A stretch of 64,000 bases of DNA from Ligilactobacillus faecis (lineage in GTDB: Bacteria; Bacillota; Bacilli; Lactobacillales; Lactobacillaceae), in assembly GCF_029889745.1 (NCBI RefSeq), contig NZ_CP123639.1, forward strand, positions 658,501-722,500, in the 5' to 3' direction. Shown piece by piece: positions 25,188 through 39,023 of the stretch. The notes under the pieces are model-generated. The model worked only from the letters and a program-made list of their open reading frames with translations. It was not told where the DNA came from and ran no database searches. The first letter of the stretch is position 1, and the number at the start of each line of letters is the position of its first letter. A program made the position numbers and the translations under genes.

Positions 25188-25260
25188 TGGGTGGTCAGGG
25201 GATCGAACCCTGGACCCACGGATTAAGAGTCCGTTGCTCTGCCAGCTGAGCTAACCACCC
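25188..25260 (-). tRNA. tRNA-Lys (anticodon CUU)
   Basis: A 73-nt cloverleaf with acceptor GGGTGGT pairing with the 3' ACCACCC, discriminator A, D-arm GCTCAGCTGGCAGAGC, anticodon loop CTCTTAA, and T-arm GGGTTCGATCCC. The CCA end is not encoded. It is identical to the copy at 25342-25414. Confidence 0.95.
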
Positions 25261-25341: not shown

Positions 25342-25414
25342 TGGGTGGTCAGGGGATCGAACCCTGGACCCACGGATTAAGAGTCCGTTGCTCTGCCAGC
25401 TGAGCTAACCACCC
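25342..25414 (-). tRNA. tRNA-Lys (anticodon CUU), second copy
   Basis: Same 73-nt sequence as 25188-25260, upstream in the same transcript orientation, with an AT-rich 81-bp spacer. It reads the AAG lysine codon and is a tandem duplication. Confidence 0.95.
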
Positions 25415-27671: not shown

Positions 27672-28913
27672 TTACCAAACGAACAAGCCGACCATTGCTG
27701 CTGATAGTAAGGAAACTAAGATCCCGGAAAGCAACATGTAGCCTACGTTCTTCGAGATAAGATCGTTCTTTTCACGGTCAACGATCCCTTTGAAACAGCC
27801 GATGATCATCCCAACGGTCGAGAAGTTCGCAAAAGAAGTTACAAAGACTGTCAAGACTGCTTTATAGTGTGGAGCAAAATCTTTGATCGTGTCAGTCACT
27901 TGACCCATAACAACAAATTCATTTGTAACTAACTTCATCCCCATATATTGTGAGAATTGGAAGGCTTCACCTGCTGGAAGACCCATCAACCATGCAAATG
28001 GATACATCACGATCCCAAGTAAATGTTCTAATGAAAGCCATGGATTGATCAAACCTAAAAGCTTGTTGATCAAAGCAGCTAAAGCAACGAAAGCAATAAC
28101 GTTGGCAGCAATGATCAAGATCAAACGACCTGCACCTAAGATCGAATCACCTAAGAAGGAGAAGAAAGGTTCTTTCTTAGGTTTACCGTTAGCATCAACA
28201 TCACCGATCTCAGCTTCAGCCATCGCTGAACCTTTCATCGTTGCGATCGTATCTTCTTCAGGAGAAACTTTGACTGGGTTCAACATCGCTACGACTGTTA
28301 AGGCGTTGATCACGTTAACTGGCACAGCCGTCAAGATGTATTCACCTGGCATCATCTGTGTATAAGAACCGATGATCGAAGCTGTCACACAGCTCATCGA
28401 CATCATCGCCAATGTCAAATTACGTTTGGCATTGATCTGTTTAAGTTGTAAGGAAGAAACAGCAAGTGCTTCAGTATTCCCAAGAAACATCATTTCGATC
28501 GCAAAGAATGATTCAAACTTAGGTTGTCCTGTAAGTTTAGATAACCCCCGACCGATCCATTTGATGATCCAAGGTAAAACACCGATATAAGTCAAAATAT
28601 CAAACAATGGAACGACCATCAAGATCGGGAGCAGAACTTGCACGAACCAGTCCATTTGCTTGACTTTGACCATACTTGGGATCGCAAATTCGATCCCAAC
28701 GTACGCGATCTTCATCAATTCGTTAAAGCCAGCAGCTGCCCCTTCAACGATCGCACGTCCGACCGAAAAGCTCGTTAAGAACCAAGCCATCACCAAGTTG
28801 AACACGACCATCGTGAGCACCCCACGCCAATTGATCGCATGCCGATCCTTTGAAAAAGCGTAACCGATCGCCAAGAAGATCACTAAACCTACAACATTTA
28901 TTGCTAAATACAA
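27672..28913 (-). CDS. nupC: concentrative nucleoside transporter (NupC/CNT family)
   Basis: A 413-residue CNT transporter with about ten helices. Signatures include FVQVLLPILMVVPLFDIL, the conserved FFAIEMMFLGNTEAL (about 145-160) and NEFVVMGQ with SFANFSTVGMIIG near the C-terminus. It imports nucleosides by cation symport and would feed the salvage enzymes at 4.3-5.8 kb. The best start is TTG at 28913, with AGAGGAG 8 nt upstream; earlier starts overlap that site. It is divergent from the small RNA gene at 29.3 kb. Confidence 0.92.
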   Translation of the reverse strand: MYLAINVVGLVIFLAIGYAFSKDRHAINWRGVLTMVVFNLVMAWFLTSFSVGRAIVEGAAAGFNELMKIAYVGIEFAIPSMVKVKQMDWFVQVLLPILMVVPLFDILTYIGVLPWIIKWIGRGLSKLTGQPKFESFFAIEMMFLGNTEALAVSSLQLKQINAKRNLTLAMMSMSCVTASIIGSYTQMMPGEYILTAVPVNVINALTVVAMLNPVKVSPEEDTIATMKGSAMAEAEIGDVDANGKPKKEPFFSFLGDSILGAGRLILIIAANVIAFVALAALINKLLGLINPWLSLEHLLGIVMYPFAWLMGLPAGEAFQFSQYMGMKLVTNEFVVMGQVTDTIKDFAPHYKAVLTVFVTSFANFSTVGMIIGCFKGIVDREKNDLISKNVGYMLLSGILVSLLSAAMVGLFVW

Positions 28914-29242
28914 GATAATTTCTCCTCTCTTTATCAATAAAAATAATAGCAATACTGATATGACTGTAAAACTTCAATTAGTATATCTATTTCCATCAGA
29001 TTTGTAAATATCCTTATTATTTTTATTTAATCTTCAAAAATAAAAAAAATATAATCTATTCCTACAAAAGATACGTACCAATCGCAAAATAAATAACGGT
29101 CGATCAACAAAAAGAACGAACAACCGCCTAACAAAAGAACGAACGATTATAACAAAATTAGCCGATTAATCAAAAAATAATTTCATTACGTGCATATTTT
29201 AACAAAATCTCGCACCCGAGTAAACTTTTGCGTTTTCCCGAA

Positions 29243-29279
29243 TGAAAGCGTTGACAAAAAGAATACAAACGAGTAGAAT
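29243..29279 (+). promoter_or_regulatory. strong promoter overlapped by a cre (CcpA) site
   Basis: TTGACA (29251-29256), a 17-bp spacer and TAGAAT (29274-29279) make a near-ideal sigma-A promoter. TGAAAGCGTTGACA (29243-29256) matches the cre consensus TGWAANCGNTNWCA fully and covers the -35 box. A second site with 13 of 14 matches lies on the other strand at 29332-29345 in the transcribed region. CcpA repression is therefore likely. Confidence 0.8.
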
Positions 29280-29304
29280 AAAACTTGAAAAGGAGATAAA
29301 GCCA

Positions 29305-29397
29305 CTGTACGTACGTTATAAAATGTTGGTATATCAACGTTTTCATCTTGATGATTTTTTAGAACTCAAGCGACTTAGATCTCCTTTTGATCGCTAG
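29305..29397 (+). CDS. possible short peptide within the small RNA
   Basis: A 30-codon frame from CTG (29305) or 24 codons from ATG (29323) ends at TAG 29395-29397. The peptide is rich in Arg, Leu and aromatic residues (MLVYQRFHLDDFLELKR...). A strong AAAAGGAG site lies 9 nt before the CTG but 21 nt before the ATG. The same site is complementary to a segment just before the stop codon, so translation may be self-masked. Start and reality are uncertain. Confidence 0.35.
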   Translation: MYVRYKMLVYQRFHLDDFLELKRLRSPFDR

Positions 29398-29489
29398 ACA
29401 GACGGATCACCGATAATGTAAAAGAAGATCGTGAAAGAACGCTAAGCGGTGATGAAAGGTCTGTTTAGTTACATGTATCCAAAGAAAGA

Positions 29490-29523
29490 GGGAGCGCCTT
29501 GCTTTAGAGGCGTTCCCTTTTTT
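29490..29523 (+). terminator. terminator of the small RNA
   Basis: GGGAGCGCCT and AGGCGTTCCC around an 8-nt loop, followed by TTTTTTT. Confidence 0.9.
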
Positions 29524-29884: not shown

Positions 29885-32554
29885 TTGGAACCTTATCAGA
29901 GTAAATCAGAAGAACTACTCCAAAAATATGAAGAACACGACCCGCTGGCTGGACTGACGAGTGCTCAAGCTCACAAACAGTTGGCTCTTGATGGTCCAAA
30001 CACTTTAACGACTAAAAAGACACCTAAATGGCAACTATTTATCCGTCAATTCAATAATATGATCATTTATATTTTGTTATTGGCGACAGCTTTGACACTT
30101 TTTTTAGAGCACTATACCGATGCGCTCGTGATCTCCGCTGTGATCATCGCCAATGCGGTGATCGGCTACTATCAGGAAGCAAATGCGGCCGATGCTCTAG
30201 CAAAGATCAAAGAATTATTGGCGACAAAAGCAACTGTTTATCGCGATAAAAGACGCCAAGATATCGAGGCCAAAGAACTTATCGTAGGTGATGTCGTTTA
30301 TTTAGAAGCAGGCGATCAAGTTCCCGCAGACTTACGCCTTTTAAAAACAGCCGACTTGCGGATCGAAGAATCTGCTTTGACTGGTGAAGCAGACGCTGTT
30401 GATAAAGAGGCCTGTGAGCTAGCAGAAGCGCACCTGCCCCTAGCTAAGCAACTCAATATGGCTTTTTCCTCCACGACTGTTGTCAATGGTTCTGGGCTGG
30501 GCGTCGTAGTTGCAACGGGAAAAAACACTGAACTTGGAAAGATCTCACAAGCTGTTTCAAATGCGAAAACACGTCCAACACCATTGATGCGTGACATCAA
30601 CGCGCTTGGAAGAACTGTCTCACTTTGTGTTTTGAGCGCCGCCATTTTGCTCTTTATCCTAGGGTTATTTTTAGAGAGCTACTCGCTTTCAGTTTTGACT
30701 TTAGCGATCGTCACGATGATCGTTGGTTCGATCCCAGAAGGACTTCCAGCCACAACTTCAGTCATTTTAGCCTTAGGTGTGGCTGACCTTGCCAAAAATA
30801 AAAATGCGATCGTCAAAAGCTTACCTTCAGCTGAAACTTTAGGGGCTGTTGATGTGATCGCAACTGACAAAACTGGGACTCTGACTAAAAACGAAATGAC
30901 TTTGACAGATATTTATCTTGCCAAACAACATCTTTCTGTCAGCGGAAGTGGTTATGCTCCTTACGGCGAATTATTTGAAAAAGGCCGTCCTCTCAGCAAG
31001 CGCAGTCCTGAGCTCCAAGAACTTTTGACTGCGGGCTTTTTCGCTAACGATACAACGTTGACCCAAAGTAAAGGGACTTGGGAGATCAACGGCGAACCGA
31101 CCGATGGCGCCTTTTTAACGGCATATTACAAATTATTGCCTAAAAAACAACAGTTACCACTGACAAAACTCGATCTCTTACCGTTTGACTCAGTGCACCG
31201 TTATATTGCTAGTTTAGTCATGGCCGCCGATCAAACAAAAAAGATCTATTTGAAAGGTGCCCCAGATAAAATCTTTGCCTTTGCCCAAAAACAAGATCCA
31301 AATTTTGAGCGCAGCTTCTGGCAAACACGCGCTGATCATTTAGCAAAACAAGGAAAACGTGTCGTTGCTTTAGGCGCGATCACAGCAGATCAAGCACTCA
31401 CAGAATTAGAGCATGAACATTTAGAACAAGGTTTCAAATTTCTAGGCTTAGTTGGGATCATCGATCCACCTCGTCCTGAAGTTATCGCTGCTTTACGCGA
31501 GATGCGAAAAGCTCACGTCGAAGTAAAAATGATCACAGGTGATGCCCCACTGACAGCTAAAGCGATCGGGCAACAGCTAGGTTTGAGCGAGCGTAAACTT
31601 CAAGCGATCACAGGTCAAGAATGGGATCAACTCTCTGCGGCCGAAAAACAAGTGGCCGCTGTAGAAAATCAGATCTTTGCCCGTACGACTCCAGAAAATA
31701 AACTTGAGATCATCGAAGCTTTGCAACAAAAAGGCAAAGTTACAGCGATGACAGGCGATGGCGTCAATGATGCTCCAGCTTTGAAGAAAGCTGACATCGG
31801 TGTTGCGATGGGGATCAAAGGGACAGACGCAGCAAAAGAAGCAGCCGATATGATCTTGACAGATGACAACTTCCAAACGCTGACAACTGCGATCCGCGAA
31901 GGACGACGGATCTATGACAATATCAAAAAGAGCATTCTCTTTCTTTTACCGACGTCTTTTGCCGAGGGATTGATCATCTTTTTAACGATCCTCTTTGATC
32001 GCGAGATGCCTTTACAAGCAACACAACTCCTTTGGATCAACTTAGTTTCAGCTTTGACGATCCAGTTTGCGTTCATCTTTGAACCAGGAGCGAGCGATCT
32101 GATGAAACGGCCACCCCGTGCTAGCGCAAGCCGCTTATTAGGTAAGCGCGAATTGATCCAACTTGGCTACGTCTCGCTTTTGATAGCTTTAGTTGGTCTT
32201 TTAGCTTACGAAGGCTTGATCCAGACTGGAGCTTCAAGTGCGCTCGCAAGTACTGCAATGGTCAACATCATCGTCTTTAGCAAGATCTTTTATTTGTTCA
32301 ATATCCGCACAGATGCTTCTGCTTTTTCAAGTGCGTCTTTTACAAATAAAAAAGCCTTTTTGATCATCTTACTCATGATCGTACTCCAATTAGGGCTGAC
32401 CTATCTGCCTTTCATGCAAGATGCTTTTAGCACGACTGGGATGCAATTAGGTGAATGGATCTTGACCATTCTTTGCGGTTTTAGTATTTTAGTCATCACT
32501 GAATTAGAGAAAGTTTTTTTCCATAAGAAAAGAGCGCTTCGTCTCAAAGCGTAA
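29885..32554 (+). CDS. P-type cation-transporting ATPase (type II)
   Basis: An 889-residue pump with an N-terminal cation-ATPase domain, an A-domain loop TGEADAV, M4 motif SIPEGLPATT, phosphorylation site DKTGTLT near residue 330, KGAPD nucleotide-binding loop, TGDGVNDAPALKKADIGVAMG hinge (in part), and six C-terminal helices. It resembles the Ca2+/Mn2+ pumps of lactic bacteria, but the M6 ligand Asp of SERCA is replaced (INLVSALT) and M5 Asn is Ser, so the transported ion is open. The start is TTG (29885) after AGAAAGGAAG. Its terminator was duplicated by an IS insertion. Confidence 0.88.
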   Translation: MEPYQSKSEELLQKYEEHDPLAGLTSAQAHKQLALDGPNTLTTKKTPKWQLFIRQFNNMIIYILLLATALTLFLEHYTDALVISAVIIANAVIGYYQEANAADALAKIKELLATKATVYRDKRRQDIEAKELIVGDVVYLEAGDQVPADLRLLKTADLRIEESALTGEADAVDKEACELAEAHLPLAKQLNMAFSSTTVVNGSGLGVVVATGKNTELGKISQAVSNAKTRPTPLMRDINALGRTVSLCVLSAAILLFILGLFLESYSLSVLTLAIVTMIVGSIPEGLPATTSVILALGVADLAKNKNAIVKSLPSAETLGAVDVIATDKTGTLTKNEMTLTDIYLAKQHLSVSGSGYAPYGELFEKGRPLSKRSPELQELLTAGFFANDTTLTQSKGTWEINGEPTDGAFLTAYYKLLPKKQQLPLTKLDLLPFDSVHRYIASLVMAADQTKKIYLKGAPDKIFAFAQKQDPNFERSFWQTRADHLAKQGKRVVALGAITADQALTELEHEHLEQGFKFLGLVGIIDPPRPEVIAALREMRKAHVEVKMITGDAPLTAKAIGQQLGLSERKLQAITGQEWDQLSAAEKQVAAVENQIFARTTPENKLEIIEALQQKGKVTAMTGDGVNDAPALKKADIGVAMGIKGTDAAKEAADMILTDDNFQTLTTAIREGRRIYDNIKKSILFLLPTSFAEGLIIFLTILFDREMPLQATQLLWINLVSALTIQFAFIFEPGASDLMKRPPRASASRLLGKRELIQLGYVSLLIALVGLLAYEGLIQTGASSALASTAMVNIIVFSKIFYLFNIRTDASAFSSASFTNKKAFLIILLMIVLQLGLTYLPFMQDAFSTTGMQLGEWILTILCGFSILVITELEKVFFHKKRALRLKA

Positions 32555-32588: not shown

Positions 32589-34103
32589 ATGTAGACTAAG
32601 TCATCAGAGTATGTGCTCTGGTGACTTTTTTTTGTATAATTAAAGAAAACGGTTACGGAGGTGCTCATTATGCTTCACAAAAGTGATCCCAATCTCAAAC
32701 GCTGTGAATATGCTCGTACTTCTCTAGATGATTTGGTCCCAAAAGATCATTTACTCCGTAAAATTGATCAAATTATTGATTTCTCTTTTATTTATGATCT
32801 TGTCGAAGATTCCTATTGTAAAAATAATGGTCGTCCTAGTCTTGACCCTGTACTACTCATAAAGATTCCTTTGATCCAAAATCTATTTGGTATTCGTTCT
32901 ATGCGTCAAACGATCAAAGAAATTCAAGTTAATGTCGCTTATCGATGGTTTCTAGGACTAGGTTTAAATGATCCTGTTCCTCATTTCTCTACCTACGGTA
33001 AAAATTATAAAAGAAGATTTGCTGAAAGCCATGTAATAGAAGCTATTTTTGCTCATATTTTGAAACTCTGTTTAGAAAATGATCTTATCGACACAACTGA
33101 TATCTTTATTGATGGAACTCATTTGAAAGCTGCTGCTAACAGCCGTAAATATACTACTGAAGTTATTGAAACTAAGTCAAAATTTATGAGTGAAGATCTC
33201 GAAAAAGAAATAAATGTAGATAGAGCTAAACATCAAAAGAAACCCTTAAAAGAAGAAAAACCTAAAAAAAAACTAGACAAGTAAAAATATCTAAAACTGA
33301 TCCTGATAGTGGATGGTTTCATAAGGGTGAACACAAACAGGTTTTTGCCTATAACGTTCAAGCTGCCTGTGATAAAAATGGGTGGCTCTTAGCTTATGTG
33401 GTCGGTGCGGGAAATATCCATGATACGCAACTTTTTCCTGAAATATTTGAAAAAGTACGGAAGTACGACCCACAATATATTATCGCTGATTCTGGCTATA
33501 AAACACCCACGATCGCACACTTTTTACTATCTCAAGGCATAATTCCCATTCTTCCTTATAAACGCCCAAGGGGCAAAGTTGGTACGCTTAGACCCAAAGA
33601 TTTTGTTTATGATGAATATTATGATTGTTATTTATGTCCTGGCGATCAAATCTTAATGTACTCCACAACTAATCGAAGTGGTTATCGTGAATATAAAAGT
33701 GATCCTACAATCTGTGAAAAATGTCCTTTACTGCACAAATGTACACAAAGTAAAAATCATCAAAGAGTTATCGCTCGTCATGTTTGGCAAGATAGTATGG
33801 AAAAATGTGAGGATATCAGGCATCAAACTGGCTCAAAATTAAAGTATGAAGCGCGAAAGGAGACGATCGAAAGAAATTTTGGTTCGGCAAAAGAATATCA
33901 CAACTTGAGATACGCCCGAGAAGTAGGAATTGATAAAATTCTAGCTAAAGTTGGGTTGATATTTGCGTGCCTAAATCTAAAAAAATTGGTAAAAATACTG
34001 GGGAAAAACCCTGTTATATTCGTATATTTCAAAGTATATAGTTATAAAAATACATAAAAAAACAAACTCTATCCGATTTGAATAGAGTTTGTCTACGTTC
34101 TGA
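32584..34103 (+). mobile_element. IS1182-like insertion sequence, 1520 bp
   Basis: Short inverted repeats TCAGAATGTAGAC (32584) and GTCTACGTTCTGA (ending 34103) match at 12 of 13 positions. The flanks are a 23-bp direct duplication that comprises the complete stem-loop of the ATPase terminator. A second hairpin terminator (AGTCATCAGAG...CTCTGGTGACT then T8) just inside the left end blocks read-through into the transposase. The element carries one transposase in two frames. Confidence 0.88.
32670..34057 (+). pseudogene. IS1182-like transposase split by a -1 frameshift at A9
   Basis: The N-terminal half (32670-33284) has the family start HKSDPNLKRCEYARTSLDDL, GRPSLDPVLLIK and the Asp region DIFIDGTHLKAAAN. 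It stops at TAA 33284, just after PKKK coded by a run of nine A (33264-33272). In the -1 frame the protein continues directly as TRQVKISKTDPDSGWFHKGE through IADSGYKTP and the Glu region KETIERNFGSAKE to 34057. A single-base deletion or programmed/transcriptional slippage at A9 explains it. The ATG at 32670 follows GGAGGTG. Confidence 0.85.
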
Positions 34104-36479: not shown

Positions 36480-38741
36480 TTACATCGAAGTATGGAACGT
36501 TCTTGCGATAACGTCATCTTGTTGTTCTTTAGTCAAGTCAGCAAAGTAGACACAGTAGCCAGAAACACGAACTGTCAAAGTTGGATATTCTTCTGGATGT
36601 GCTTGTGCATCAATTAAAGTGTCGCGGTTAAAGACATTGACATTTAGATGATGCCCATCATTTTTCATGTAACCACTGATCATATTGACTAAAGTCTTTT
36701 CTTCAAGTTTTTCATCATGCCCTAACGTTGATGGTGTCACTGCAAATGTATTGGAGATCCCATCTGTTGCATAACGATATGGTAACTTAGCTACAGATAA
36801 CAGTGAAGCTAACGCCCCGTTCGTTTCAGCACCATAAGCTGGATTTGCACCTGGTGAGAATGGTTCACCGGCTTGACGTCCATTTGGTGTCGTACCTGTA
36901 TTTTTACCGTAAACAACATTTGAGGTGATCGTCAAAACAGATGTCGAAAGTTTAGCACCACGGTAGAGATGGTGTTTATTCATCTTAGTATAAAGTTGTT
37001 TTACTAACCAAGCTGCGATCTCATCGACACGATCATCATTATTTCCATAACGTGGGAAATCATTTTCAGTTTCAAAATCGACTGCGACTCCATTTTCATC
37101 ACGAATAACTTTAACTTTCCCGTATTTGATCGCCGAGATCGAATCAGCTGCGACTGCTAGACCTGAGATCCCCGTTGCAAAAGTCCGATCTAAACGAGTA
37201 TCTTTCAAAGCTAATTGAGCTGATTCATAGTAGTATTTGTCGTGCATGTAATGGATGACATTCAACGCATTGACATAAACATCTGCGACCCATTCGAGCA
37301 TATCATCAAATTTCTTCATAAATTCGTCATAATCGATATATTCTGATGTGATCGGTGCGTAGGCTGGCCCACATTGCATTTTTGTCAACTCATCGACTCC
37401 ACCGTTGATCGCATATAAAACGGTCTTCGCTAAGTTAGCGCGAGCCCCAAAGAACTGCACTCCATCAGCGATCGGTTGAGCAGACACACAGCAAGCGATC
37501 CCGTAATAGTCAGTCCCCCATGTTTCCATCATCAACTCATCATTTTCATATTGGATCGTTGAACTTTCGATCGAAACACTTGCAGCATAATTCTTGAACG
37601 GCTCTGGTAAGCGTTCTGACCATAACAACGTGATATTTGGTTCTGGTGCAGCGCCCATATTATGCAATGTGTGTAAGAAACGATAAGTCGTCTTAGTTAC
37701 ATGGTGACGTCCATCCATCCCCATACCAGCAATCGACAAGGTCGCCCAGATCGGATTACCTGAGAATAAAGAATTATATTCTGGTGTCCGAATAAAGGTC
37801 ACCATCCGCAATTTCATCGTAAATTGATCGATCAATTCTTGGGCTTCTTTTTCTGTCAAACGTCCTGAAGCTAGATCACGTTGGATATAAATATCGATGA
37901 ACGCATCGATCCGGCCGATCGACATCGCAGCCCCGTTTTGTTGTTTGATCGAAGCTAAGTATCCAAAATAGAGCCATTGGATCGCTTCTTTTGCATTCGT
38001 AGCTGGATATGAGATGTCATAACCGTAAGCAGCGGCCATCTTCTTCATATCTTGTAAAGCACGGATCTGATCAGAAACTTCTTCGCGTAGACGGATGACT
38101 TCATCTGTCATCTCACCATCGCCACAGTTTTTAAGATCTTCTTTTTTAGCTGCGATCAAACGGTCGATCCCATAAAGTGCGACCCGTGGAAAATCAGCGA
38201 TGATCCGTCCCCGTCCATAGGAATCAGGTAACCCAGTCACGATCTTGTTATGCCGTGCCCGTTTGATCTCATCATCATAAGCATCAAAAACGCCTTGGTT
38301 ATGTGTTTTATGCAGATCAGTGAAGATCCGTTCTGCTTCAGGGTCAAGTTCCATACCGTAAGCTGCTAAGGCAACTTTGGCCATCCGGATCCCACCATAA
38401 GGCATCAAAGCTTTTTTCATTGGCTTTTCAGTCTGAAGTCCAACGATCTTTTCGAGATCTTTATCTAAATATCCCGGTCCGTGTGACGTGATCGAAGAGA
38501 TAACTTTCGTATCTGCTTCTAACACCCCACCAGCTGCACGCTCTTTTAACTTGATGTCGATCAACTTGTCGTTTAACGTCTTAGTTGCTTCAGTTGCTTC
38601 TTCTAAGAATGACTGATCACCATCATATGGTGTAAAGTTGCGGTTGATAAAGTCACGTACATCGATCTCATCTTGCCAATCTCCGCCTTTAAAACCATTC
38701 CATGCAGTTGTGACTGTTTCTTTACTGTTGTCTTTGAGCAT
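36480..38741 (-). CDS. pflB: pyruvate formate-lyase (formate C-acetyltransferase)
   Basis: A 753-residue glycyl-radical enzyme that converts pyruvate and CoA to formate and acetyl-CoA under anaerobiosis. The active-site pair is Cys-Cys in [11 protein letters not shown], and the radical Gly is in RVSGYCVYF close to the C-terminus. The ATG at 38741 follows GGGAGG at 7-8 nt; a start 21 nt further upstream was rejected. A perfect cre site lies about 80 bp upstream, so carbon catabolite control is expected. Confidence 0.97.
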
Positions 38742-38816
38742 CGGTATTCCTCCCTGTATCAAAACTTACTTTTTTGATCTAAAATCAACTTGTAGTACGC
38801 ACTAAAAAACGTTTTT

Positions 38817-38830
38817 TGTCAACGCTTTCA
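38817..38830 (-). promoter_or_regulatory. cre (CcpA) site upstream of pflB
   Basis: Minus-strand TGAAAGCGTTGACA matches the cre consensus at all defined positions and is the same 14-mer as at 29243-29256. Confidence 0.8.
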
Positions 38831-39023
38831 TCATAATATTATCTGAAATTATTGCTAAATACAAGTGCTAGTCGCCCTTTTTTAGAATTTTTATCAAAAT
38901 ATTGAAAAGTTTAGAAAAGTTTGAAGGTTTCATGCTATGATTATTTCAAATAATCTGCTTCATATCACCTAAAATCAAAGAAAGGAAGCTCCAGCTACTT
39001 TTGACAGCGCTGAGCATCGTTAG

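Follow-up and report, generated by a model that had tools for sequence, protein, structure and literature searches.

A candidate CcpA-repressed non-coding RNA family in Ligilactobacillus with a covarying core hairpin and a cre-like site at a fixed promoter position

The closest working analogue of the RNA considered here is RsaI (RsaOG) of Staphylococcus aureus, which is a trans-encoded small RNA of listed length 111, repressed by CcpA in excess glucose and released in starvation (PMC9266662). In lactic acid bacteria (LAB), the literature searched linked few small RNAs with carbon catabolite control, namely 6S RNA and the Lactococcus small RNA ArgX, the latter in an article dealing with CcpA as well (PMC6586332). 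LAB 6S RNA generally lies between rarA and uspA and forms a single elongated structure with a bulge at its centre (PMC8414754). The long non-coding RNA of L. salivarius is, like the RNA studied here, a non-coding RNA of the genus with unassigned function; it differs in being megaplasmid-borne, 520 nt long and specific to one species, and a word search of its description finds neither 'catabolite' nor 'CcpA' (PMC5643018).

The gene described here lies in Ligilactobacillus faecis, at about 29285-29523 (+) of the window (the whole 64,000-nucleotide stretch that was analysed), between a nucleoside transporter gene (27672-28952, -) and a P-type cation ATPase gene (29885-32554, +). It shares with RsaI the proposed logic, a cre site at the promoter (in the window and in 13 of 13 homologues) and a free-standing gene, and it most likely works as RsaI does. 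The two differ in length, with 111 listed for RsaI (PMC9266662) and about 214-312 nt for the Ligilactobacillus RNA, the transcript ends of which were chosen by hand in the 13 loci. They differ also in that RsaI has an Rfam family, whereas in the window no family exceeded threshold and, in four loci scanned at E up to 1, there was no credible one. RsaI is thus an analogue and, by every test made, not a homologue. No description of the RNA was found in Rfam 15 or in the literature searched, which misses most subscription journals, and the analysis supports a new family within a known kind of RNA, the CcpA-repressed small RNAs. A preliminary description, made from the DNA sequence of the window, had likewise proposed an undescribed CcpA-controlled small RNA gene; that proposal is supported by conservation, covariation, a cre-like site in 13 of 13 homologues, occurrence at two genomic sites, the lack of an Rfam family and the distinction from 6S RNA.

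Table 1. Predicted features of the RNA locus, in window coordinates
Feature	Position	Strand	Basis or remark
cre site (predicted CcpA operator)	29242-29257	+	overlaps -35; 16-mer ATGAAAGCGTTGACAA, exact match to WTGNAANCGNWNNCAW
Promoter TTGACA-17-TAGAAT	29251-29279	+	11/12 to consensus
Inferred transcript, about 239 nt	29285-29523	+	start deduced from -10
Domain I, variable hairpin region	29286-29390	+	closed by AAAAGGAGAU with AUCUCCUUUU
Internal cre-like site	29332-29345	-	12/14; not conserved
Domain II, conserved core hairpin	29394-29468	+	covariation; covariance models R1 and R2
Domain II outer helix	29394-29403 with 29459-29468	+	
Domain II inner helix	29406-29412 with 29447-29453	+	internal loop GG / GAAAG
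Apical loop, starts AUAAUGUAAAAGAAGAUCGUGAAAGAAC	29413-29446	+	most conserved unpaired segment (alignments)
Intrinsic terminator	29490-29523	+	9-bp stem with arms GGGAGCGCC / GGCGUUCCC (29490-29517), 10-nt loop, U run (UUUUUU); sequence and fold

The near-consensus promoter of the preliminary description, and the perfect cre site that it placed over the -35 element, were both recovered (Table 1). Each match alone is weak, since a consensus scan of 2 kb gave 7 promoter-like sites where shuffles gave 4.8, and since the 2 exact matches to WTGNAANCGNWNNCAW in the whole window (0.50 expected) are also reached by 15 of 100 shuffles. The other exact match, at 38816-38831 (-), has the identical sequence and precedes pflB (36480-38762, -; PFL-like by Pfam), so the same cre 14-mer does lie upstream of that gene (38817-38830), as had been claimed. 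A second, internal cre site had also been proposed; it is present, differing from the first cre 14-mer at 2 positions, but is not kept in the homologues and is probably incidental. The best internal scores in the other 12 transcripts are 10-12, the sole 12 being that of locus L004 at a different place (+4), and locus L006 scores 11 at the same offset (+47) as the site in the window.

The segment 29286-29523 folds at -72.9 kcal/mol (z -4.75), and none of 200 shuffles folded as well, in agreement with the self-complementary transcript of about 235 nt that had been expected, its length now being put at about 239 nt. The strong terminator likewise expected is evident in both sequence and fold; a consensus terminator scan reported none here, the loop limit of that scan being 8 nt against the 10-nt loop of this terminator. 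At the RNA locus there was no Rfam match above threshold in the window, and at E up to 1, in a scan covering four of the 13 homologue loci (L001, L003, L007 and L010), there were two unrelated sub-threshold matches and no credible one. The Rfam search that had been proposed as a check thus returned no family over threshold, and the statement that the locus holds no recognisable riboswitch stands. Elsewhere in the window, at 25188-25260 and 25342-25414 (-), are two tRNA genes that lie 81 nt apart and score alike in Rfam (69.1 bits each). Sub-threshold PyrG leader matches were seen in G003 and G017 (L093:3173-3252 and L094:3171-3254; 42.2 and 36.1 bits, cut-off 65).

Homologues are present in 13 of 26 Ligilactobacillus genomes, including that of the window, as judged by BLASTN and covariance model R1. 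BLASTN detected the conserved core in 11 genomes besides that of the window, and the model added a diverged copy in G011 (L028, E 4.8e-10); the remaining 32 listed genus matches, all with E of 0.0081 or worse, were taken as chance, 10 of them having been inspected. Three BLAST hits in G015 (L013, L014 and L015) were left out of the homologue set as a short palindrome in another context. This palindrome, containing AACGTTGATATATCAACGTT, matches window positions 29317-29343, in domain I, over 26-27 nt at 92-93% and lies, near position 1501 of those loci, just upstream of promoter-like sequence at two places. Nine records give named carriers, i.e. L. murinus, L. animalis, L. salitolerans, L. apodemi, L. 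pobuzihii, L. acidipiscis, L. ruminis, L. pabuli and Candidatus L. excrementavium, as identified by a pattern scan that is stricter than the covariance model and may have left out the window's own genome. Outside the genus there was no convincing match in 251 family genomes and 395 order genomes, searched with stricter filters, which lose weak matches. Four weak hits in the family genomes (25.4-28.2 bits) and eight in the order genomes (24.5-28.8 bits) were taken as chance. Of these 12, 11 lie inside open frames that are 199-532 codons long, and the last (L048), with no frame over 39 codons, looks by eye like a TTATCCACA-type repeat region. As far as searched, the family therefore appears confined to Ligilactobacillus. 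The RNA is evidently dispensable, because 13 of the 26 genus genomes have no convincing match, including G025, the neighbour of carrier G002. Five of these non-carriers have a thioesterase match (G008, G015, G022, G024 and G025; the other eight have none), and in the approximately 650 nt upstream of the thioesterase in those five the cre-promoter-hairpin unit was not seen by eye.

The carriers hold the gene at two genomic sites. At site A (G000, the genome of the window, and G002, G003, G004, G011, G017, G020 and G021) it lies between the transporter and thioesterase genes (the latter 4HBT in the window), with the ATPase gene in between only in G000, G003 and G017; the next gene after the RNA is the thioesterase in G004, G011, G020 and G021 and a convergent 5'-nucleotidase-like gene in G002. 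At site B (G001, G012, G018, G019 and G023) it lies upstream of, and on the same strand as, a HAD hydrolase gene. On the far side there is an MFS gene in G012, apparently the same gene in G019, G001 (with broken frames) and G023 (further off), and another frame in G018, these neighbours having been identified by Pfam on the G012 copies and elsewhere by likeness of the first residues. Two sites, with differing downstream genes of which one is convergent, show that the RNA is free-standing and not the leader of a single gene. Between the ATPase and thioesterase genes of the window are two adjacent frames (32661-33284 and 33398-34057, +), which we take to resemble one split transposase. A midpoint-rooted RpoB tree was made for 24 genomes, G009 and G013 having yielded no match to RpoB. 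In it the site-B species group in a single clade (100/99), and the eight site-A species together with the non-carrier G025 fall on one side of a branch with support of 89/93, below the 95/80 mark; G025 stands beside G002 (100/99). The tree fits vertical inheritance of the gene. The transporter and thioesterase genes of G025 are adjacent, with no RNA unit seen between them, and its lack of the RNA is most simply read as a loss.

In all 13 homologues a cre-like site, agreeing at 12-14 of 14 positions with TGWAARCGYTWNCW, which we take to be the cre consensus for scoring these sites, overlaps the -35 region, its first position lying at -43 to -40 relative to the transcript start that was chosen. 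For a single locus, 4-16% of 200 shuffles contain a 12/14 match somewhere within 100 nt, so the case for the site rests on its fixed position. The best -35 hexamer matches at only 1-3 of 6 positions in 9 of the 13 loci, and the automatic choice of -10 looks wrong for L007. Because the cre overlaps the -35 element, the predicted effect of CcpA is repression, as is argued for LAB 6S RNA (PMC8414754); the RNA is, on this reasoning, apparently repressed by CcpA.

The covariance of the RNA across Ligilactobacillus genomes, which had also been suggested as a check, is pronounced in the core hairpin, where 14 of the 17 pairs change on both sides among 13 sequences (13 of 17 among 12 sequences), with 39 such cells and none of 500 shuffles as high. 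Slid-partner controls gave 0-4 pairs with changes on both sides, and 92.8% of cells in the 13 sequences pair, figures to be read with the core structure having been taken from the same sequences, which favours the proposed over the slid version, chiefly on cells paired. Further pair types exceeded shuffles only mildly on 13 sequences (23 of 500) and not on 12 (273 of 500). The hairpin consists of two helices, the GG/GAAAG internal loop and a large apical loop beginning AUAAUGUAAAA; its unpaired positions rank with the least variable, whereas the two helices covary, and the first 24 nt of the apical loop have mean unpaired probabilities of 0.62-0.83 across the 13 folds. Domain I varies in sequence, and its closing helix, of 10-16 pairs, is present in the MFE folds of all 13 homologues, with the 5' end paired to a CUCCUUU-like arm in each; in L028 the arms are altered on both sides and the helix is retained. 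Full-length homologue folds have z of -2.8 to -9.2 (60 shuffles each). At site B, and likewise in L028, it is the core hairpin that leads into the U-tract, the other site-A loci have a separate terminator after that hairpin, and in all 13 an end can be chosen at a U-run 3' of a hairpin. The cre-like site at a fixed place in 13 of 13 homologues and the covariation of the core are together the strongest evidence for the RNA.

It is conceivable that the RNA acts in cis, as a leader or attenuator for the cation ATPase gene that follows it, given that it ends in a terminator and, in G003, G017 and the window, lies upstream of that gene in the same orientation. However, in 10 of the 13 homologues the next gene is not the ATPase but a thioesterase, convergent 5'-nucleotidase-like or HAD hydrolase gene, and no leader was matched by Rfam in the window, including any known leader controlling the ATPase, the case that the preliminary description had named as counting against a regulatory RNA. 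This possibility was rejected on gene order and is very improbable. A small peptide, encoded alone or by a dual-function RNA, would be compatible with the conserved AUAAUGUAA, readable as a C terminus -I-M-stop, and with GTG frames ending there of 24-26 codons in four of the five site-B loci, 28 in L002 and 19 in L011. Against this, the AUAAUGUAA frame of the window is interrupted by a stop just a few codons upstream, no frame of 12 codons ends at that motif there or in L003, L004, L005, L006, L012 and L028, and helix substitutions preserve pairing. Since no reading frame is common to all 13 homologues, the inner helix of L006 carries an insertion of 1 nt and L028 is without the ATG-stop, a peptide gene was rejected, its likelihood being minimal, and the earlier remark that there is no recognisable protein gene is upheld.

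Identity with 6S RNA, or a second 6S RNA, has in its favour that the lengths are similar and that LAB 6S RNA also has a cre over the -35 element, a second cre inside the gene in some species and a proposed repression by CcpA (PMC8414754). Moreover, RF00013 is matched at E 0.001 in just 1 of the 13 carriers, and at E up to 1 in 2 of 16 carrier rarA loci. Both of these matches, however, adjoin rarA (G000, 42.6 bits; G021, 36 bits; cut-off 46.4), and BLASTN with the G000 6S RNA, which gave no match to the studied RNA, found a homologue beside rarA in G002, G003, G004, G011, G012, G017, G019, G020 and G021. Including G000, 6S RNA thus coexists with the studied RNA in at least 10 of 13 carriers; none was found at the examined rarA loci of G001, G018 and G023. 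The studied RNA, by contrast with 6S RNA, a single long hairpin with a large central bulge that serves as template for pRNA, has two hairpin domains and a terminator, and its neighbours are nucleoside transporter, thioesterase, ATPase, 5'-nucleotidase-like or HAD hydrolase genes, not rarA. It has no RF00013 match in the window at the gathering threshold, nor at E up to 1 in L001, L003, L007 and L010. As a different gene in a different place, with a separate 6S RNA beside rarA, it was judged not to be 6S RNA, and that identity is scarcely credible. The 6S RNA of the window's genome lies beside rarA at L099:2091-2277 and scores below the Rfam cut-off. Across the genus, RF00013 is matched at E 0.001 in 8 of 26 genomes, the only carrier among them being G021, and since the cut-off is passed in 6 of 26, yet BLASTN finds 6S RNA in 10 of 13 carriers, 6S RNA is easily missed in this genus.

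The preferred reading, which we consider probable, is of a free-standing, CcpA-repressed, trans-acting non-coding RNA, about 240 nt long, that is conserved within two Ligilactobacillus groups. Its parts, their conservation, their covariation and the two locations are established from the sequence, and from them we infer transcription, binding by CcpA and the sign of its effect, action in trans, a target and a mode. CcpA, with HPr-Ser-P, would bind the cre over the -35 element and block the promoter while a preferred sugar is plentiful; when that sugar runs short, the RNA would be made. Its 5' domain would be locked by pairing of the GAAAGG(A/G)G-like 5' end with the CUCCUUU-like arm, the core hairpin would present the conserved, mostly unpaired apical loop, the terminator would end the RNA, and the RNA would act in trans. 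The likeliest mode, with about even chances, is pairing of the apical loop with mRNAs, followed by protein binding. RNAs of the RsaI type pair with their mRNAs at the SD or in the UTR. Exact complements of a loop 12-mer occur at 24 sites in the 13 genomes, nine of them the RNA genes themselves, leaving 15 non-self sites against 6 for the reversed pattern; an 18-mer with up to 2 mismatches gave 13 non-self sites in six genomes against 3. By eye, one gene recurs with the 12-mer complement, inside the coding sequence of the close relatives G012 and G019, and none recurs with the 18-mer in the six genomes, such that no target is common to sites A and B in either search (exact 12-mer, 13 genomes; 18-mer with up to 2 mismatches, six genomes).

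Because the complements show no recurring target beyond that one gene of two close relatives, a protein-binding role has to be weighed, in which the GG/GAAAG loop and the apical loop form a docking module for a protein or part of the ribosome and titrate a regulator when sugar runs out, in the manner of 6S- and CsrB-type RNAs. The nearly invariant unpaired core between covarying helices, and the lack of a recurrent complementary mRNA site, are consistent with such a role, but antisense loops can be equally conserved and the loop near-complements are commoner than the reversed control (13 against 3; 15 against 6), and we regard it as possible though rather unlikely. More doubtful still is a new RNA class tying sugar supply to a protein partner, in which the GG/GAAAG and AUAAUGUAAAA loops would capture a regulator or enzyme once CcpA releases the promoter. 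Were this the case, the same cell would contain, in addition to 6S RNA, a second global RNA under CcpA control. On the preferred reading of a CcpA-repressed trans-acting RNA, the family described here offers RNA databases a new, apparently genus-restricted entry, and it gives the study of post-transcriptional sugar control in Ligilactobacillus a concrete candidate that can be deleted.
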